The notes beneath the pieces were generated by a model. It worked only from the letters and a program-made list of their open reading frames with translations, was not told the DNA's origin and made no database searches. From Argopecten irradians (Eukaryota > Mollusca > Bivalvia > Pectinida > Pectinidae): a stretch of 64,000 bases of DNA. The stretch covers positions 26,877,849-26,941,848 of the forward strand of contig NC_091147.1 of assembly GCF_041381155.1 (NCBI RefSeq), written 5' to 3'. Position numbers and translations under genes: made by a program. This document shows, piece by piece, positions 12,472 through 58,240 of the stretch (position 1 is its first letter; each line of letters begins with the position of its first letter).

Positions 12472-13583
12472 CCATATCTCTTCGAGATGGTATTCATGAC
12501 ATCATGAATATTCATGAATGATTCATGAACTTCAATAATATAAGCAGATTGTGGTCCATGAAAAAAATTCATGAATATTCATCAAATGACTCTCATGAAC
12601 TCTTCATGACGTTTTATGAATCCATGAAGCATTCATGATTGTTCATGATCAATATGTCAAGAATTTTTATGCACGACTGATATTCATTACAATTCTTCAA
12701 AATGAACGAAATTGTTTCATTCAAAGAATCTTAATGAATATCAGATATGCATAAAACTTCATGAATGATTGTTGACATACTATTTCATTCATTTAAATGA
12801 ATTTTAATGAATATCCACTGAAGTCACATGACTTGTCACATGACCATATCAGTCACGTGACTTCTATATATATTTCCCGCCAAAACAGTCACCAACCAAA
12901 ATGGCTGCTGAATCTGCTGGCGTGTGGAAGGGGAAACATTATGCATTTTAAAATGGAAGTTTTGGCACATGACTGAACGTATTATTCCATTCCTGGATTT
13001 CTCTAAGCACAGATGAACACTTTCAGTAAGTTTTGATTTATCTGCAGTTCTTTTCCAACATGAAATTGTTGCACACTGATATTGCTACAGTGATTAAGCA
13101 TAGATATTGGTTTGTGAAATTTTGTCAAATGTTATTGAATGAAATTGCCCATATAAACTATCATGCTTTACAACTATAGGTTTATTTTGGACAATTACTA
13201 ATCAACTTGGAATGTATTATGAAATTGATTTCTGAAAACATTTTGTTAGTACTTGCCTGTGGCAGTATGAAAGTATAATGAACAGAGTAAACTGTTGGTG
13301 ATTTCACTCTTTTGAATTGTTCCAGTTCATGAAGTTTCATGAATATTCATGAATTGTTTGTGCATACTGCTGTGAGTTGTAATTCATGAGTTTTATTAAT
13401 TTTCATGATATAGTTGTTCATTGAAGTTCATAATTTAATTAATAAGGGATTCATGAATGTTCATGAATTCACGAATAAAAGGATTCATGATTCGTGAATT
13501 ATTGAATAATATTCATGAATTTTATGCATGAATTATTCATGAATATTCATGTATTATTCATCAACGTCTCGCAGGGGTAATAT
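12472..13583. mobile_element. 1.1-kb element saturated with TTCATGAA palindromes
   Basis: The outer thirds (12490-12790 and 13330-13560) are packed with overlapping TTCATGAA and ATGAATATTCAT palindromes. The ends look like short inverted repeats: 'ctcttcgagatgg' on the left and the complement of 'cgtctcgcagggg' on the right. Inside the left part, 12652-12712 pairs with 12712-12778 as an imperfect hairpin. The middle (about 12790-13320) is ordinary sequence with a promoter-like segment. It is probably a non-autonomous DNA element, but the family was not recognised. Confidence 0.55.
12820..12951 (+). promoter_or_regulatory. Promoter-like core with E-box palindromes, TATA and a small ORF
   Basis: In order: GTCACATGAC, TCACATGACC and AGTCACGTGACT (a CACGTG E-box palindrome), then TATATATA (12866-12873), then an ATG in good context (aaaATGG) at 12901. 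The ATG opens a 16-codon frame ending at TAA 12949-12951. The spacing of TATA and ATG suits a short leader. Whether it is transcribed is unknown; the tiny frame may be chance or a captured first exon. Confidence 0.3.
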
Positions 13584-31876: not shown

Positions 31877-34553
31877 ATGATGCAGACGTGGATTTATTGG
31901 ACAGTTGTGCTCACAATAGCCATCCTTCAACAGACTATGGCTACCACACTGGCCAACCTGTTCAACCAGGGTGTTCTGAAAGGATTGGAAAAGTTACGTA
32001 AACGTCAACAACAAGCTCCGGAACCAGCATCAGTCTTTCCCTCCGTAAATCAGGTGCTGCAATATTGCAATATTCAAGATAGGAAAAAAACATCTTCACA
32101 TTTGGCAAAAATGAAATTCAAATTAAAAAAAAAAAAACCGTTAAGCACTCTGCTGTAAACTGATATATTTTTACTTTCATTGGCTTAAGAGCCATTAATT
32201 TGTATTGTTTGTCTCTTCTTTGGTATGGATTTGAATCAATATAAACTTTTTAAAAAGATGCTCCACCGCTGACAATTGGTATTTTTCGCTATCAAAAACA
32301 GGGGTAAAGGATTAAGTATTTTTCTTCAGTTACAAAAGCTACTTACTTTTCACCATTACCACCATTGAAAAGTTTGAGCTTTTGATTTTACTTCAAATTA
32401 AAAATATAAAAAAATAATTAATTGCATCCCGAAAAAAATCCGTTGCACTATATCCTATATGGAATGAAGTACTGATTGTGCATGCACCAAAGGCAAAATA
32501 AATGATTTTATATTATTTTTTGTGTTAATTAGACATATATATATATACATGATTAAACACCAATTATTGTTCTAATGATGAATACCATTTACGCTCTGTC
32601 GACGGTGGAGCACCTTTAAATACAAATATCATAACTGCCAACTACAAACATAGATGGTTATAATATTCACATTCATTTAGATTGTTTGATTTTTTCAGAT
32701 TTGCTTCGGCCTCGACCAGCTAGAAGGTTAGTACATGTGTAAATAGACCTGAATCCTGTCCGTTGCGTAATGGATACCGTAAAACCAACAGAAAGTCAAT
32801 GTTTTTCCAACTACCATGCAATATATCCTAGATCTGTTAAAATTTTGACAACAAATTAGCCAATATTACCTTTGTATAAACAGAGAATGATGATATGCAA
32901 TAAACTTATTAATGTTTGATACAATTTCAGTTCGTGCATTTAGCGGGCTGTTGGAATCATAGTATTATTTTTTCGAGGATACATTAATTTTCAAATGATC
33001 TATTATCAATACGGAAGACTTAAAGTGCAATACTAGTTACATAAAATATAATTGTAATTCATACTTGCTGTGATTCATTGTGGTTTTTTTTAAAATGATC
33101 TTTCCCTCAGCCTACAAGGAGCAATTTTCCACTTTCATCGATCATAACAACGATGGCAAGGCTTCATTTGACGAAATCAAACACTACCTCCAGAAGTACA
33201 ACAACAAAGTCACAGACGACCAGGTCCAGAGCTTCCTCCTCAGACGAGACACTAACGGTAAGTATGTGTGTGTGTGTGATTTGTTGACGATATATTTCGG
33301 TGATGTATCGCTATAAAACGATCAATAGTCCAACTATTACAATGGGATATACACGAATTTACCGCAGCCTCCCTAAACACTCAGATATCCACTCACGCAA
33401 CACATACCATACGGGAGAGGGCGTCCTATAACTGTTTATTTGTTAAGCCTAATACATGTAAACGAGATCAAATTAAACCTCCAATGTCTTACTTTCGACA
33501 CACATGCTTCTCAAGCTAATGTAATTCGCATTCATTTGAGCACTGAACTGCATTCAGTTGGTAATTATGGGAGTATGAATACCAGCTGGACGACGGCAAT
33601 TTAATGAAGCACACCAGTATCATAACGTCATAATAAACAACTGGCAATCCATAGACTAATGAATACCAAATGCGCTTGATAAGGTTATATAGCGGGCTTG
33701 CAGTGTGAGTTTCTTCTAAATAACTACCTAATCGTATAAAAATTATCCATAGATGATGGCGAAGTTGACTTCATTCCCGACTACCTCACCGAGATGGCGA
33801 CGCCGAACTACAGTGCCACGACGGCCCGGGAATGGTTTGACCTCGAGGATGCTAACCAGGACGGGTACGTTACCAAGGAAGAACTCATCGCCATCGCCCG
33901 CAATATCGGTATGAGTCAGGAGAAAGCAGAAGAGACGGCTAACGGGTACTACATGGGAGCCGATACCAACGGCGACCGACAGCTGGATTGGAAAGGTAAC
34001 AGGGAAAATATGTGTCCGACATTGTTTCATAACAAGAGTTGCTAATGAAAAGATAGGGCTGCTAAGTAGGTATTTAGTGTGATAAAACGTTCTTGTTCCC
34101 CTGGATAACAACCTGGGCCCGGTTGTCCAAAGGATGATTAGCTTAATCATATAATTAGTAAATTTTTTAGTTCTCATTTGAATTTTGTTTTAATATCTGC
34201 ACTAAATCCGGCGAGTAAATTAGCAATGGAGTTGAAATTGTGTAAAATCCGTATCAGCAATTATTTCAACTTCATTTGAAATTTGTCTTTAAACTGTGAT
34301 CGACAAGGCTTAGAGTGTAAGAGGAAATGAGGTAGCAACATGGAGGCTGTTTTAGGTTATAGCTATCCTCCGGCGACCAACAATATTACTTCGATAAAAG
34401 CATAATTTGTTTTACAAACAGATTTACAAACCTCCATTGCCAAAAACATAGTACCTTTTTAAAAATGATTTTTAGTAAGCGCGTTCTTTATTAACGTGTT
34501 TTAATGTACCTTCTTTATATTTTCCAGAGTATTCGTCACTCTTTGCTGAGTAA
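31877..34553 (+). CDS. Secreted four-EF-hand calcium-binding protein (spliced, 203 residues)
   Basis: Coding exons: 31877-32044, 32699-32726, 33111-33257, 33753-33995 and 34528-34553 (612 nt in frame, stop TAA). Introns are GT-AG with matching phases; exons 3 and 4 are clearly GC-richer than their surroundings. The ATG follows an acceptor (ttaacag ends at 31866), so a non-coding leader exon lies upstream; a second ATG follows at once. Residues 1-22 look like a signal peptide (hydrophobic WTVVLTIAIL, cleavage perhaps after TMA). A basic linker covers 38-44. EF-hand loops are 76-87 (canonical), 112-123 (position 12 is Pro), 147-158 (canonical) and 185-196 (position 6 is Arg, not Gly). Two sites should bind calcium well; the other two look weakened. 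Secretion suggests an extracellular role, for example in calcium handling or biomineral matrix, but that is inference. The first donor is ambiguous: GTAAAT at 32045 or in-frame GTGCTG at 32054, which would add three residues. Confidence 0.85.
32251..32620. mobile_element. MITE, 'AAGATGCTCCACCG' family, in an EF-hand gene intron
   Basis: Ends are inverted: 'aaagatgctccaccgctgac' on the left and 'gtcgacggtggagcacctt' on the right. It aligns with 55473-55863 almost throughout and more loosely with 49768-50118. It sits between coding exons 1 and 2 and is non-coding. Confidence 0.85.
33355..33445 (+). repeat. Tail fragment of the composite SINE in an intron
   Basis: 'accgcagcctccctaaacac' followed by 'acgcaacacataccatac' and 'gagggcgtcc' matches the 3' part of the 23-kb copy. 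It lies between coding exons 3 and 4 of the EF-hand gene. Confidence 0.6.
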
Positions 34554-37900: not shown

Positions 37901-38485
37901 TCAGCCTTTTTCTTTAGTAGGCCCCGACATCAGGGCCTTTCTGGAACTGACGTTAGTAATATATTCAATAGGAGAATCACGGATAAGTTCCTTCACGTTC
38001 ACACGACTAATAGCGAGCACTTTCCGGGGTGAATTACACTTAAGGTCGGGAATGTCTGTCATTTTGCCACGAGCGGGTCCTTTATTAGTCTCCGCCACGG
38101 CATCAATGGTATCCAAATCGGAATCTTTCCGGACGGTATCTCCATCTACATTCACGTTCTTCCCCCGCACCAGCGGGGGCAGGGTTCGCGGGATAATGGT
38201 AGGAGTCATGTAAAATTTGTTGGGTTTATCTTGCAAAACACTTTGTCTCGTAGGGAATTTTTGGGGTCCAAATAAAATCACTTTTTGTTCCATTTTTCTC
38301 AGTGACGGATTTTTAGGTTCCTTTTTACGTCCCCTTAAGTGTCGTTGTCGCTCGATTGACACCATGAGAGGCTTGGCAGTACTATTAAAAGTCCTTCGAA
38401 GATCCTGAATCTGGTCGAGGTAGTTCCTCTGTTTGTCGCTCACCTTCCGGTACTCCTCGAACCACTCGGGCATGCGCTTACTCAT
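37901..38485 (-). CDS. Basic 194-residue protein of unknown function
   Basis: One uninterrupted frame on the minus strand, ATG at 38485-38483 and TGA at 37903-37901. A splice acceptor (tctgataacag, AG at 38492-38491) lies five bases before the ATG, so a non-coding first exon is expected at higher coordinates. GC content and codon use stand out from the AT-rich surroundings. The N-terminal 35 residues (MSKRMPEWFEEYRK..., aromatic and charged) look helical; residues 40-65 are rich in Arg and Lys; the middle and C-terminal parts are polar, with Pro- and Ser-rich stretches typical of disorder. There is no signal peptide, membrane segment or known catalytic motif. I do not recognise the family. 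It is more likely a cytoplasmic or nuclear protein than an enzyme. The plus-strand frames across it are shadows. Confidence 0.7.
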   Translation of the reverse strand: MSKRMPEWFEEYRKVSDKQRNYLDQIQDLRRTFNSTAKPLMVSIERQRHLRGRKKEPKNPSLRKMEQKVILFGPQKFPTRQSVLQDKPNKFYMTPTIIPRTLPPLVRGKNVNVDGDTVRKDSDLDTIDAVAETNKGPARGKMTDIPDLKCNSPRKVLAISRVNVKELIRDSPIEYITNVSSRKALMSGPTKEKG

Positions 38486-38499
38486 GTTTCCTGTTATCA

Positions 38500-46423: not shown

Positions 46424-46890
46424 TGACGACGTTCTAAAACATCTTACACAATTAATTGTAGATGAACTTCAAATTTTATCACCAATTACATGAATAACTC
46501 ATCAAGTGTTTTGTTAAATTTTCATCATACATTTGTATTTTGAATTCATTAGTAAGAATTTAATTAGCTGTTTTGTATAAATTGAACACAGACAAGATTT
46601 CAAACTCTACAACAAAGGGTTCAAATAGCCACCACGGAATCCTCCATGGGGAAAGAAACACTTAGATTTAAACAAGAGGCCCAAAGGGCCTTAACGGTCA
46701 TCTGACTACCTTGATAATAGTAAAATTAATTATATATGGTGTCACTTTGTCAGGTTCATTTTCAATTTCTTTCAACAAATTTTATTTCAAACAAGAGGCC
46801 CAAGGGCCTTAACATATAGGAAATTAATTAGATATAGTGTCATGGTAGTCATCTTCGATTTGGGAACAACTAGAGATGTAACAATACTTT

Positions 46891-47740
46891 GTCGGGACCA
46901 TGTCAGGATCATTTCATGCAAGTTTCAGCCAAATCGCACCGGTAGAACTTGAGAAGAAGTTCAAAATGTGTTTTCAAGATGGCGGCTGTGGCGGCCATCT
47001 TGGATTTCGGATCGACCCGAAAAATAACAACACTTTGTCGGGACCATGTCAGGATCATTTCATGCAAGTTTCAGCCAAATCGCACCGGTAGAACTTTAGA
47101 AGAAGTTCAAAATGTGTTTTCAAGATGGCGGCTGTGGCGGCCATCTTGGATTTCGGATCGACCCGAAAAATAACAACACTTTGTCGGGACCATGTCAGGA
47201 TCATTTCGTGCAAGTTTCAGTCAAATTGCACCGGTAGAACTTGAGAAGAAGTTCAAAATGTGTTTTCAAGATGGCGACTGTGGCGGCCATCTTGGATTTC
47301 GGATCGACCCGAAAAATAACAACACTTTGTCGGGACCATGTCAGGATCATTTCATGCAAGTTTCAGCCAAATCGCACCGGTAGAACTTGAGAAGAAGTTC
47401 AAAATGTGTTTTCAAGATGGCGGCTGTGGCGGCCATCTTGGATTTCGGATCGACCCGAAAAATAACAACACTTTGTCGGGACCATGTCAGGATCATTTCA
47501 TGCAAGTTTCAGCCAAATCGCACCGGTAGAACTTGAGAAGTTCAAAATGTGTTTTCAAGATGGCGGCTGTGGCGGCCATCTTGGATTTCGGATCGACCCG
47601 AAAAATAACAACACTTTGTCGGGACCATGTCAGGATCATTTCATGCAAGTTTCAGCCAAATCGCACCGGTAGAACTTGAGAAGAAGTTCAAAATGTGTTT
47701 TCAATATGGCGGCTGCGGCGGCCATCTTGGATTTCGGATC
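46891..47740 (+). repeat. Tandem array of six 146-bp units
   Basis: Units start at 46891, 47037, 47183, 47329, 47475 and 47618. The fifth is 143 bp through loss of one 'aag'. Identity between units is very high. Each unit contains 'caagatggcggctgtggcgg' or a close variant, followed by 'ccatcttgg', giving a short inverted pair. The repeated open frames here are by-products of the array. Confidence 0.97.
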
Positions 47741-50876: not shown

Positions 50877-53625
50877 TTACGTCTTATTGACTCTGAGAGT
50901 GGCTGACTTTCCATCTTTCTGTAAAGGAGGAAATCATATAGAAGATCAAATGTTTGGAGAGTTTTAACATTTGTCAGAATAGCTAACTTGATAAAATCAT
51001 CACAAATCCTAAAGGATTTTTATAGTTGTGCTTTTAAGAGAAAATTTAAAGAATATTCATACTTGACAAATCTAATATATTAGAAGAATATAAATCTATT
51101 TATATCTTTCTTGCCTGCTTCTCTTTTTATAATTCTTTATCAAATTGATAGTCAAATTGGATTTATCTCCCTTAGTTTGAAATGTGATGAGTATTTTTGT
51201 GCACAGGGACCAGGCACAAATATATAACCAACAGTACATATATATATACATTTTGCATGTAAATGTATAGTGATACTAATATATAAATATATATATATAT
51301 ATCCATACATTGTTGGTTAGAAATTCATGCCAGGTCCCTGTGGTTTGGTGTATTACTGTTCATGAATGTTTGTAACTTTAATTTTACCACTACATTTTTG
51401 TAGGGAGAAAGCCTACGTATATATAGACAATGCCTGCTGCCTAATTCCTCCATACAATTGTTTGAAATAGAAAGGTATACAGGCCTGTGTGACAAAAATA
51501 CCAGGTACTTCACAAAATTACACAGCATGGGTATACTGTAAATGATATATCCGCTTGTGGATGTATATTCATGGAGATAAATTAATTTAAAAACAAAAAG
51601 CAAACAATTTCACAACACGAATATAATCCCATTTCTACAGTACAACAGTACTGGACATATCAAAACTATGATAGAGATATGTATTTGTTTGAATACAAAT
51701 TTGGACACAAATAGCATGAGAATAAATGATATGACTACAAAAATGAATTTTAAACTGAAATGCTATTTAGTGAAAATATACTTTCATTAAATTTGTATAC
51801 ATTTACACATGTATGTGTATGTTCCCAAAATATTTTATCAAAATACTGATATGCACTGCTTTATATTAAGTTTAAATTGTTATCATAATTCTTGTGTCAA
51901 GAAGTTGTTCAGATTGTCTTCAAATCAAATAAGGGGACATAACTGGGGCACATTGGATGATTTAAGTGTGTACATGTATATCTTCATCCATATCATTATC
52001 AACCTGAAAATTTGGCAATCCTATTAACAAATCAAAACAGCTAAGAATCAAGGAATTTTTCTAATAAAGAACAAAAATAAATTAAATGTGTTATTAATTA
52101 ATTGATTTACAGAACAAAAATATATTAATATATTATTAGATAATTATAAAAAAAGCTGGGATTAACTCCACTGAATAAATTTGATGAACACAATAAAATG
52201 ATGAAAAGGATTTTGTTTCTAACCTTGAGTCCACCAGACAAATTTGATGTGTCAATTGCATCTTTTATCTCGCAATCAAATCCATACAGGTCCTCTCCTT
52301 TCCTTGCTCGGACATGCAGTACACTTAAATATATAAGAAATGATGTTACATAATGGTTTTATTACACAATATTACACTTTATAGCCTGTATCTGTTGTGG
52401 TGAATATAGGACCAATATCACAAAATATCAAGTATAGTTAGAATCATGTGATAATATTTTGGTTATTATATAACTGTTAATTTATAGAGTTACAATAAAT
52501 ATGATTAAAAATTATGTCGTTCCTCATCTAGGAGTTACCTCCCCTTATTTTTATAAACCTCACCATGTATACATGTATATATGTTTTATATAATTGTTTA
52601 TTTGTACCACCAATATCAGGAGATGACTAAGATAGGCTATGTCTAATCCAATGGACATTAACATCTTTTTGTCAATAAAATATTTGGAAATTGAAATTGA
52701 AATTGAAATTTATTACACAATCAAATTGTATGCATGGCATTTCAATGATCAGTGCAACGCATATGTACCCTGTTACTTTCATCAAATGACCAGACAGCAT
52801 AAGTAAACAAAGGTGTGAACAGTGCAAGTGTTTTTTAAGAAGTGAAAGTCAAAGTTTGTTGATTGTTGAATGTTGATTTCATCACTGCTGAGTATATATA
52901 CAACACTATAAGACCCCTCGCACGCTTTCATCCAACCCATCAAAAGTGACTCTTATAAGTTATATAATACTTGAATATTTACAGTCAGTGATGAATTAAT
53001 TGTATAAACTCCGTTGATTTCAACCAAAGGCTACACAACATTATTTCTCAATAGATTTAGTATGTCACCTGCAATTTGGAGCCGTGCGGATGGATACATA
53101 TATTCTTCAGTAGGAAAAGGAGGGAGAGTGAGTTTTTTTTTGCCATCAGCATGTATATTGATTCATGGATTTCTCTGTCATGTCAAGCTTAAATATGATC
53201 CAACTTACTTTTGTGAACCATCGAAAGTGATACGGAATTCCATCTCTGTGAATTTTTTTATGCTAGGGTGATCCATCTTAAACTCCATATGATCTGCTTT
53301 GTCTTTCACCTTTGCATCTGTCAATAAAAAAAAATATATATCACAATGTTTTGTCCATTGAAACTGAATCACTGGCAGATAATCATTTTCCTAGGTCACT
53401 AATTTATTATTTCAAGATTATTTAAATCTTTATAAACATGGTTAATGTCGCACAAAATTATGAAAATATTATCCCTGCATAAATCGGTAGTACCTTACAG
53501 TAACATTTGTATATAGACTGTATTATATATGTTTCTTAATATATTTAGAACAAGATAAACTTGGTTTCAAAATAAAAAAACTTACACTGCAGTCCATTGA
53601 AATCATCGTCCCAAGACACAGGCAT
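50877..53625 (-). CDS. 96-residue protein in four coding exons, possible HSP20/CS-like fold
   Basis: Minus strand. Coding parts: 53625-53586, 53317-53209, 52323-52224 and 50918-50877 (291 nt in frame, stop TAA 50879-50877). Donors are GTAAGT, GTAAGT and GTTAGA; acceptors are gacag, ttaag and tacag; phases 1, 2 and 0 match, and all junctions keep the frame open. An acceptor (tttcag, AG at 53664-53663) puts a non-coding exon upstream. The protein begins MPVSWDDDFNGLQ. Residues about 50-96 alternate hydrophobic and polar and end GGLKKDG...ATLRV, which recalls the strand, dG turn and strand end of alpha-crystallin/CS domains. That resemblance is my inference; the family is not recognised. There is no signal peptide, so the protein should be cytosolic. 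The stop overlaps a possible donor (GTAAGC at 50881-50876), so a longer isoform cannot be excluded. Confidence 0.8.
51202..51344. mobile_element. 143-bp palindromic MITE in the last intron of the 96-residue gene
   Basis: The left 'cacagggaccaggcac' and 'aaccaacagta' are inverted in the right 'ttgttggttag' and 'gccaggtccctgtgg', about 40 bp each, with an (AT)n loop of about 60 bp. Confidence 0.75.
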
Positions 53626-53710: not shown

Positions 53711-54415
53711 AGGAGCAGGTCAGTGTGGTTTGTACATAGTGCTAAATATGTTCTCTGTCACTCAGCTGACGGAGTAGGTCAGTGTGGTTTGTACATAGTG
53801 TTAAATACGTTCTCTGTCACTCAGCTGTTAAATATGTTCTCTGTCACTCAGCTGACGGAGTAGGTCAGTGTGGTTTGTACATAGTGCTAAATATGTTCTC
53901 TGTCACTCAGCTGACGGAGTAGGTCAGTGTGGTTTGTACATAGTGCTAAATACGTTCTCTGTCACTCAGCTGACGGAGTAGGTCAGTGTGGTTTGTACAT
54001 AGTGCTAAATATGTTCTCTAGTGCTAAATACGTTCTCTGTCACTCAGCTGACGGAGTAGGTCAGTGTAGTTTGTACATAGTGCTAAATATGTTCTCTGTC
54101 ACTCAGCTGACGGAGTAGGTCAGTGTGGTTTGTACATAGTGTTAAATACGTTCTCTGTCACTCAGCTGACGGAGTAGGTCAGTGTGGTTTGTACATAGTG
54201 CTAAATATGTTCTCTGTCACTCAGCTGACGGAGTAGGTCAGTGTGGTTTGTACATAGTGCTAAATATGTTCTCTGTCACTCAGCTGACAGAGTAGGTCAG
54301 TGTGGTTTGTACATAGTGCTAAATATGTTCTCTGTCACTCAGCTGACGGAGTAGGTCAGTGTGGTTTGTACATAGTGTTAAATACGTTCTCTGTCACTCT
54401 GCTGACCGATCATGC
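53711..54415 (+). repeat. Minisatellite, 59-bp unit, about 11 copies
   Basis: Unit 'ggagtaggtcagtgtggttt' to 'ctctgtcactcagctgac', at steps of 59 bp (for example 53857, 53916, 53975). Two spots carry partial extra units, near 53822-53840 and 54010-54030. Units differ mainly at 'gctaaatatg' against 'gttaaatacg' or 'gctaaatacg'. It probably lies in the first intron of the 96-residue gene. Confidence 0.97.
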
Positions 54416-54418
54416 TCA

Positions 54419-54545
54419 TAAGGCTCGGTCAGTAGAGCAGTAGTTTTTCGCACTAGATATTTGGGTTTGATTCCTGGTCAGGGCACTTGACAAGAATCAT
54501 ATGTATATTTTCCCTGTTCTACAACTTTGGTCTGTAACTAAATAA
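54419..54545 (+). mobile_element. tRNA-derived SINE copy (head and part of body)
   Basis: 'ggctcggtcagtagagcag' resembles a tRNA A-box region, and GGTTTGATTCC (54464-54474) is a B box. A body follows with 'ggtcagggcacttgacaaga'. Confidence 0.6.
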
Positions 54546-57303: not shown

Positions 57304-58240
57304 AGTACATTTATAACGTTACGTTGTTTCGGTACTTCAAAGTATTTCGGTATCATGACGTACAGTACTTGCAAAAGTCGTTGCGATACTTACAAAAGTC
57401 GTTTCGGTACTTATATATTAAAAATTTGTAAGCCAAAATAAAAGTGTTTTATAGTTTCTGAAACAGGTATTTTTTAGTGCCTTTTACCTCCAGTAACATT
57501 AATTAATTAGCCTGCAGTACATGTACATGTACTAAAGATTTAATATGCGTTAAGATCCAGTCTTCTCTATTTTCGCCAAAATCTTAAAAGCATATTATTA
57601 GCATATTTTAGTTTTTAGGTAAAGTGCACATTTACATTGTCTTAAATCTGACCTGTATGTGGCGCTTGTTAGCCCGAGATGCTCTAGCCCTGACACCAGA
57701 CTTAGACATTATGACAGATAGATGTCTGGTGTATGTAGGGCCAGAGTACTAGTTCAGTGCTATATCAATAGCTGGAACTCGCCGACACCGTTTGGTATCG
57801 GCAATGAAAAACGACATAAGGACCGGCCACGAGAGGGGGATTTGAACAAAGCGTAAAACAAGTAAATGTTTATGTCAAAGCCTGTTATTATAGGTTGCCG
57901 TGTTTTCAGTGTAGTGAATAGACATTTTCGTTTTCAAAAATGTTCTCGATCGTGTCCTACTAAGGGAAATTCGTCATTTTTTTCAAGTTTCGAGGTTGTT
58001 TGTGAAAAAAGTAGACTACTTCAGTAAGACCTCTTGTTATCACCTTGAAGTTTAACATCTTAATTAACTTTCAATTAAGACCGAAGTTGTTGAGATATCT
58101 GGTCTGGATATTTTGTTACAACACTTTGAACTAAATTCAACACTTTGAACTAAATTACCCAATTTTGCATCACGGAGGAGTTCCTTACCTTTCTCTATAT
58201 ATCAGTCTATAGTGGGTCTTTGACTTATCAGCGTGCTAAA
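57304..58240. other. Intergenic sequence, nothing recognised
   Basis: Contains short direct repeats of 'cttacaaaagtcgtt' near 57370-57410 and of 'aacactttgaactaaatt' near 58121-58155. No gene supported. Confidence 0.45.

Follow-up and report, generated by a model that had tools for sequence, protein, structure and literature searches.

The window analyzed here, that is, the whole 64,000-nucleotide stretch at C14:26877849-26941848 of an 846-Mb genome, raises a question that is simple to state: do four short open stretches on its minus strand make up a gene and, if so, to which protein family would the product belong? The first-pass annotation proposed a short multi-exon gene and saw in the C-terminal half of its product a likeness to alpha-crystallin or CS domains. 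The explanation that we favor, with a probability of about 0.45, is a minus-strand gene with four or more exons, for which the search revealed no second copy and which would encode a small soluble protein consisting of one beta-sandwich domain distantly related to HSP20 (alpha-crystallin). The exons, the frame, the coding signal, and the tblastn result on a second copy can be read directly from the genome; the remainder of this explanation is argued below.

Structure of the probable gene

The 291 bases of the four minus-strand exons (Table 1) form one frame of 96 residues, and derivation of this frame anew from the sequence reproduced the annotated in-frame joining, with its matched phases, exactly. 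The joined exons contain neither a stop nor a frame break, and all three introns are GT-AG. An in-frame TAA lies two codons before the ATG (TAA CAC AAC ATG, with A at -3), and the start of the 96-residue frame is therefore fixed.

Table 1. Exons, introns, and the intronic repeat of the four-exon locus, in window positions
Feature	Position	Strand	Description
Exon 1, coding part	53586..53625	-	40 bases, ATG to donor GTAAGT; MPVSWDDDFNGLQ plus 1 base
Intron 1	53318..53585	-	268 bases, GT-AG
Exon 2	53209..53317	-	109 bases; putative strands beta2-beta4 of an HSP20-like domain
Intron 2	52324..53208	-	885 bases; contains a dispersed SINE-like repeat
Exon 3	52224..52323	-	100 bases; would hold beta5, beta7, and beta8; weak acceptor, alternative start 52302
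Intron 3	50919..52223	-	1305 bases
Exon 4	50877..50918	-	42 bases including TAA; putative strand beta9
Dispersed repeat in intron 2, approximate core	52376..52695	-	from genome search, query positions 931-1250

Two kinds of repeat accompany the locus. The SINE-like element of intron 2 (about 52376-52714 in the window) is some 320 bases long, is flanked on one side by AATTTC units, and has at least 39 further copies in the genome at 81-87% identity. A 59-bp tandem array, which starts 87 bases ahead of the ATG, occupies 53712-54406, and at its edge there is a tRNA-like match (54414-54485) of 29.4 bits, compared with a family cut-off of 29.

Evidence for a gene

Splice sites were scored with a metazoan consensus and ranked against all GT (n = 7,317, both strands) and AG (n = 6,186) sites of the window. 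The three donors, described earlier as near-consensus, rank in the top 3.2, 1.3, and 3.5% of GT sites. Among AG sites, the acceptor of exon 2 ranks in the top 2.0% and that of exon 4 in the top 0.3%; that of exon 3 is weak, with 43% of AG sites scoring equally well.

Codon usage was judged with a model of 8,765 codons from the same genome, drawn from 32 HSP20- and kinase-family loci and five neighboring exons. The composition of the frame is that of coding sequence: the claimed coding sequence scores 21.1 (null mean -13.2, S.D. 9.0), a value that is also attained by 19 of 20,000 random open segments stitched together from the window (33 of 20,000 with an earlier model of 2,168 codons, now superseded). 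The claimed frame is the best of six in each of the four exons. In exon 2 it scores 8.2 and the other five frames are all negative; in exon 4 the values are 2.26 and, for another frame, 1.88, this exon being too short to tell by itself.

A search for exon chains over 84 kb, limited to chains of four exons with introns between 50 and 1500 bases long, settings that favor the claim, recovered exons 1, 2, and 4 exactly and began exon 3 21 bases later (at 52302), with a score of 61.0, compared with a sum of about 60.3 for the form claimed. The minus-strand chains ranked above this one score 85.0 (this one containing a 194-residue ORF), 69.8, and 66.8 (both antisense to plus-strand genes); on the plus strand, two genes score 196.9 and 91.7, and the next chain, which is non-genic, 56.7. 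None of 40 random sequences of 64 kb (one strand each, with the local triplet statistics of the window) reached 60.3, the best being 57.1, and among 766 non-overlapping random chains there was one whose coding part scored at least 20. These tests of chance are partly after the fact, because the chain was picked by eye and the settings were chosen in knowledge of it.

Could the chain be no gene at all, in other words a fortuitous run of splice-like signals or the fragment of a decayed gene? The weak acceptor of exon 3 points that way, as do the approach of another non-genic chain (56.7 versus 61.0), the repeat within intron 2, and the tandem array just upstream of the ATG. The same may be said of the search for relatives: tblastn against the own genome gave three matches, all of them the gene's own exons, and no second copy; pattern scans yielded 45 fitting stretches in a collection of genome contigs and 10 in viral contigs, none of them a relative that might show purifying selection, both collections being non-animal and hence saying little about other molluscs. 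Set against this are the preference for the claimed frame in four exons out of four, the rarity of its coding score in the null, the failure of every random sequence to score as high, and the freedom of the joined exons from stops and frame breaks. We consider the absence of a gene very unlikely. The splice signals, the codon usage, and the chain search thus uphold the proposal of a short multi-exon gene, and the four exons very probably form a real, small protein-coding gene.

Where the gene ends

The length of 96 residues would hold if the gene ends with the TAA at 50877. This stop lies within GAC/GTAAGC, a donor-like site starting at 50880 that ranks in the top 2.6% of GT sites, and because it overlaps so good a donor, exon 4 may be internal. 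It would then comprise 38 bases (50918-50881, AAGAC/GTAAGC), the gene would continue, and the domain would lie at the N-terminal end of a longer protein, an arrangement compatible with either reading of the fold discussed below. Apart from the strength of GACGTAAGC as a donor, this alternative is favored by the rank of exon 4 among 6,361 exons, 92 as an internal and 173 as a terminal exon, in a ranking that itself favors internal exons, as two signals are scored for them. It is also favored by the distance to the nearest AATAAA/ATTAAA, about 1.15 kb past the stop (49730 and 49680), and by the existence of phase-compatible candidates downstream.

Neither of these candidates is convincing, which counts against a continuation. 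The first, at 47768-47667 (score 23.4, of which coding only 2.7), was rejected as repeat DNA, lying mostly within or beside a tandem array of a 146-bp unit (46879-47740; 5.9 copies, 97% matches). The second, at 38393-37901, some 12.5 kb away inside the 194-residue ORF, has a coding score of 28.3 and a weak inner acceptor (1.5); it was rejected as well, since it bypasses a strong acceptor at 38490 that is out of phase with exon 4 and has its own ATG directly after it. On balance, an internal exon 4 seems rather unlikely. The minus-strand exon that holds this ORF (37901-38490) looks terminal, has its ATG just past the strong acceptor and a coding score of 43.3, and matches no Pfam family.

Likeness to HSP20

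The 96-residue protein has no match up to an E-value of 10 in Pfam, NCBIfam, or the PDB sequences, in searches whose HMMER filters discard most matches with E above 0.1. A PF00011 search of the genome, in which this locus is searched exon by exon, gave 16 matches, and the four-exon locus is not among them. The best BLASTP stretch with a single HSP20 domain spans 18 residues (E = 0.048).

Comparison of profiles with hhalign reaches further. On a profile built from 13 HSP20 domains of the same genome, the protein scores 21.7 (P = 0.0017), and on an enlarged one, made of 12 of these domains (one partial domain having been removed) and three PDB segments, 22.4 (P = 0.0012). The aligned span is 33-87 by default and 18-92 at low stringency, amounting to 51-70 columns in which the order of the domain is kept. 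The score on the first profile was reached by none of 500 shuffled sequences (best 19.0) and none of a further 1,000 (best 20.9), and that on the enlarged profile by none of 600, if barely (best 22.2); the reversed sequence scores 16.7. A form without VLHVRAR, which is close to the form with the shorter exon 3, scores 16.0 in the test with the enlarged profile, and we count this in favor of the likeness. Other results speak against it. Turning off the context pseudocounts lowers the score to 15.6 (P = 0.029), and global mode gives 13.8 (P = 0.011). Of 166 segments taken from unrelated proteins, two score above the query on the first profile (25.6 and 25.3); both are overlapping pieces of one kinase locus, with 27 aligned columns, and the 166 segments themselves overlap. 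Five true HSP20 domains that were left out score 47.3-127.6, two to six times higher than the query with its 22.4.

The residues are similarly mixed. Shared with HSP20 (PF00011) are the order of the aligned stretches, the LxVxA(R/K) motif in beta5, and a gap-free alignment of IKDAIDTSNLSGGLKKDG to LPKAVDPLALTSSLSADG. At the positions that are invariant or nearly so among the genome's own HSP20 domains, G is present, V appears as I, and P of LP as K, whereas L of GxL and AP are missing; in terms of signatures, LP reads IK, GxL reads GKSATL, and there is no AP. The protein thus falls short of HSP20 membership in three respects, namely the Pfam cut-off, the score level of left-out members, and the signature positions, and the pattern of scores indicates a likeness at or beyond the level of a superfamily.

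The case for a gene whose product is no relative of HSP20, but a small protein rich in beta structure, with a fold that is unrelated or not yet described and a chance likeness residing mainly in the 18 residues of IKDAIDTSNLSGGLKKDG, draws on the same data. The databases without a match, the short BLASTP stretch, the unrelated segments that pass, the missing signature residues, and the near tie with the best shuffle of the enlarged profile are all consistent with it; the extent of the alignment, with its columns in domain order and its score attained by no shuffle, argues against. We regard this as possible, if doubtful. The alpha-crystallin character attributed to the C-terminal half therefore survives in part, as a weak likeness between profiles that no shuffle equals, and not at the level of true domains. 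A putative, distant HSP20-like domain, by the tests made a member of neither HSP20 nor CS, is the reading that we retain.

Other differences from HSP20 proteins concern gene structure. Introns of the locus fall inside the putative domain; of the 16 PF00011 matches in the genome, by contrast, 14 are without an internal stop. The locus is also unlike the 12 of the 16 that occur as neighboring pairs of equal open-frame length. Small heat-shock proteins of modest size are known from the nematode HSP12 group; at about 110 residues, with short termini, they resemble the present protein, and they are clear HSP20 members. Tandem-domain small heat-shock proteins are reported for Spiralia (PMC9075518), and the same genome holds such genes (e.g. 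L013/L015, L016/L019, and L022/L024), as would be expected of a spiralian animal; these have two domains in one frame, whereas the present gene would have one divergent domain in four exons. In the portions of the literature consulted, including PMC6197667 and PMC9075518, we did not find such a protein described.

The CS/p23 reading

The co-chaperones of the CS/p23/SGT1 type have a short single domain without beta6, and p23 has the HSP20-like fold. By eye, the spacing of the last strands of the query resembles that of these proteins (PF04969). No similarity was seen between profiles: on a profile of seven CS sequences from the PDB, the query scores 9.7, a value equaled by 246 of 500 shuffles, and the Pfam search gave no CS match with E up to 10. 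The CS likeness suggested for the C-terminal half was not borne out, and this reading was dropped on sequence. The reach of the CS profile is itself limited, since the six true HSP20 domains tried on it score no more than 11.1-13.9, so that the miss is weak evidence. On the first HSP20 profile, human p23 scores 19.4 and the six other CS sequences 8.5-14.6, compared with 21.7 for the query; that the query exceeds p23 is a point in favor of the distant HSP20 relationship.

Proposed function

Our inferences concern whether the gene is transcribed and where it ends, as well as the fold, function, and monomeric state of its product. From the alignment, the strands would follow one another as beta2 (DHMEFKMD), beta3-beta4 (IKKFTEMEFRITFDG), beta5 (NVLHVRARKG), beta7 (LYGFDCEI), the AIDTSNLSGGLKKDG turn together with beta8, and beta9 (SATLRVN). 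Beta5 (VLHVRARKG) would thus be followed almost directly by beta7, and the dimer loop with beta6 would be absent; at its expected place, between GF and DC, the alignment skips eight positions of the profile.

In metazoan small heat-shock proteins, pairing takes place through beta6, and oligomers are assembled with the help of the arms and the IxI tail. As the 96 residues include no beta6 loop, no long N-terminal arm, and no C-terminal IxI tail, features that HSP20 proteins possess, the protein should be monomeric. It would probably act as a constitutive holdase-like protein or as an adaptor that binds clients, rather than as an oligomeric heat-shock chaperone, and a monomeric client-binding domain appears to be the likeliest role. 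Whether it would stand alone, as the mini-chaperone suggested in the first-pass annotation, depends on exon 4, which may be internal. No match resembling a heat-shock element occurs within 4 kb upstream of the ATG; the nearest upstream match to the consensus, with one mismatch, lies at 57933, 4.3 kb away. The lack of a near element would make constitutive expression likelier than induction by heat, and not all small heat-shock proteins are heat-induced. Elsewhere in the window, at 12500-13560, a cluster of TTCATGAATATTC-like units, partly in tandem repeats, fits the pattern of the element, probably by coincidence.

A broader proposal, which we judge unlikely, sees in the gene a single-copy family confined to one lineage. 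Its members, about 96 residues long, would be stand-alone proteins of alpha-crystallin type that lack beta6. Each would be a minimal chaperone domain, monomeric and belonging to neither HSP20 nor CS, encoded by a gene with introns inside the domain and without a heat-shock promoter.

If the fold is as proposed, the protein would, in our judgment, be among the smallest natural alpha-crystallin-like proteins, and would provide a test of how much chaperone activity is kept by a lone domain that lacks the dimer loop and arms. If only the gene is real, it would be a small orphan gene of a type that is overlooked by ORF scans.

Neighboring genes

Two plus-strand stretches of the window, 33119-33257 and 33794-33995, are exons of an EF-hand protein (Pfam EF-hand), perhaps a sarcoplasmic calcium-binding protein. 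About 2.4-9 kb to the left of the window, also on the plus strand, lies a locus of large exons (L027), one of which has a weak match to CbbQ_C, below the cut-off; we take it to be VWA8.
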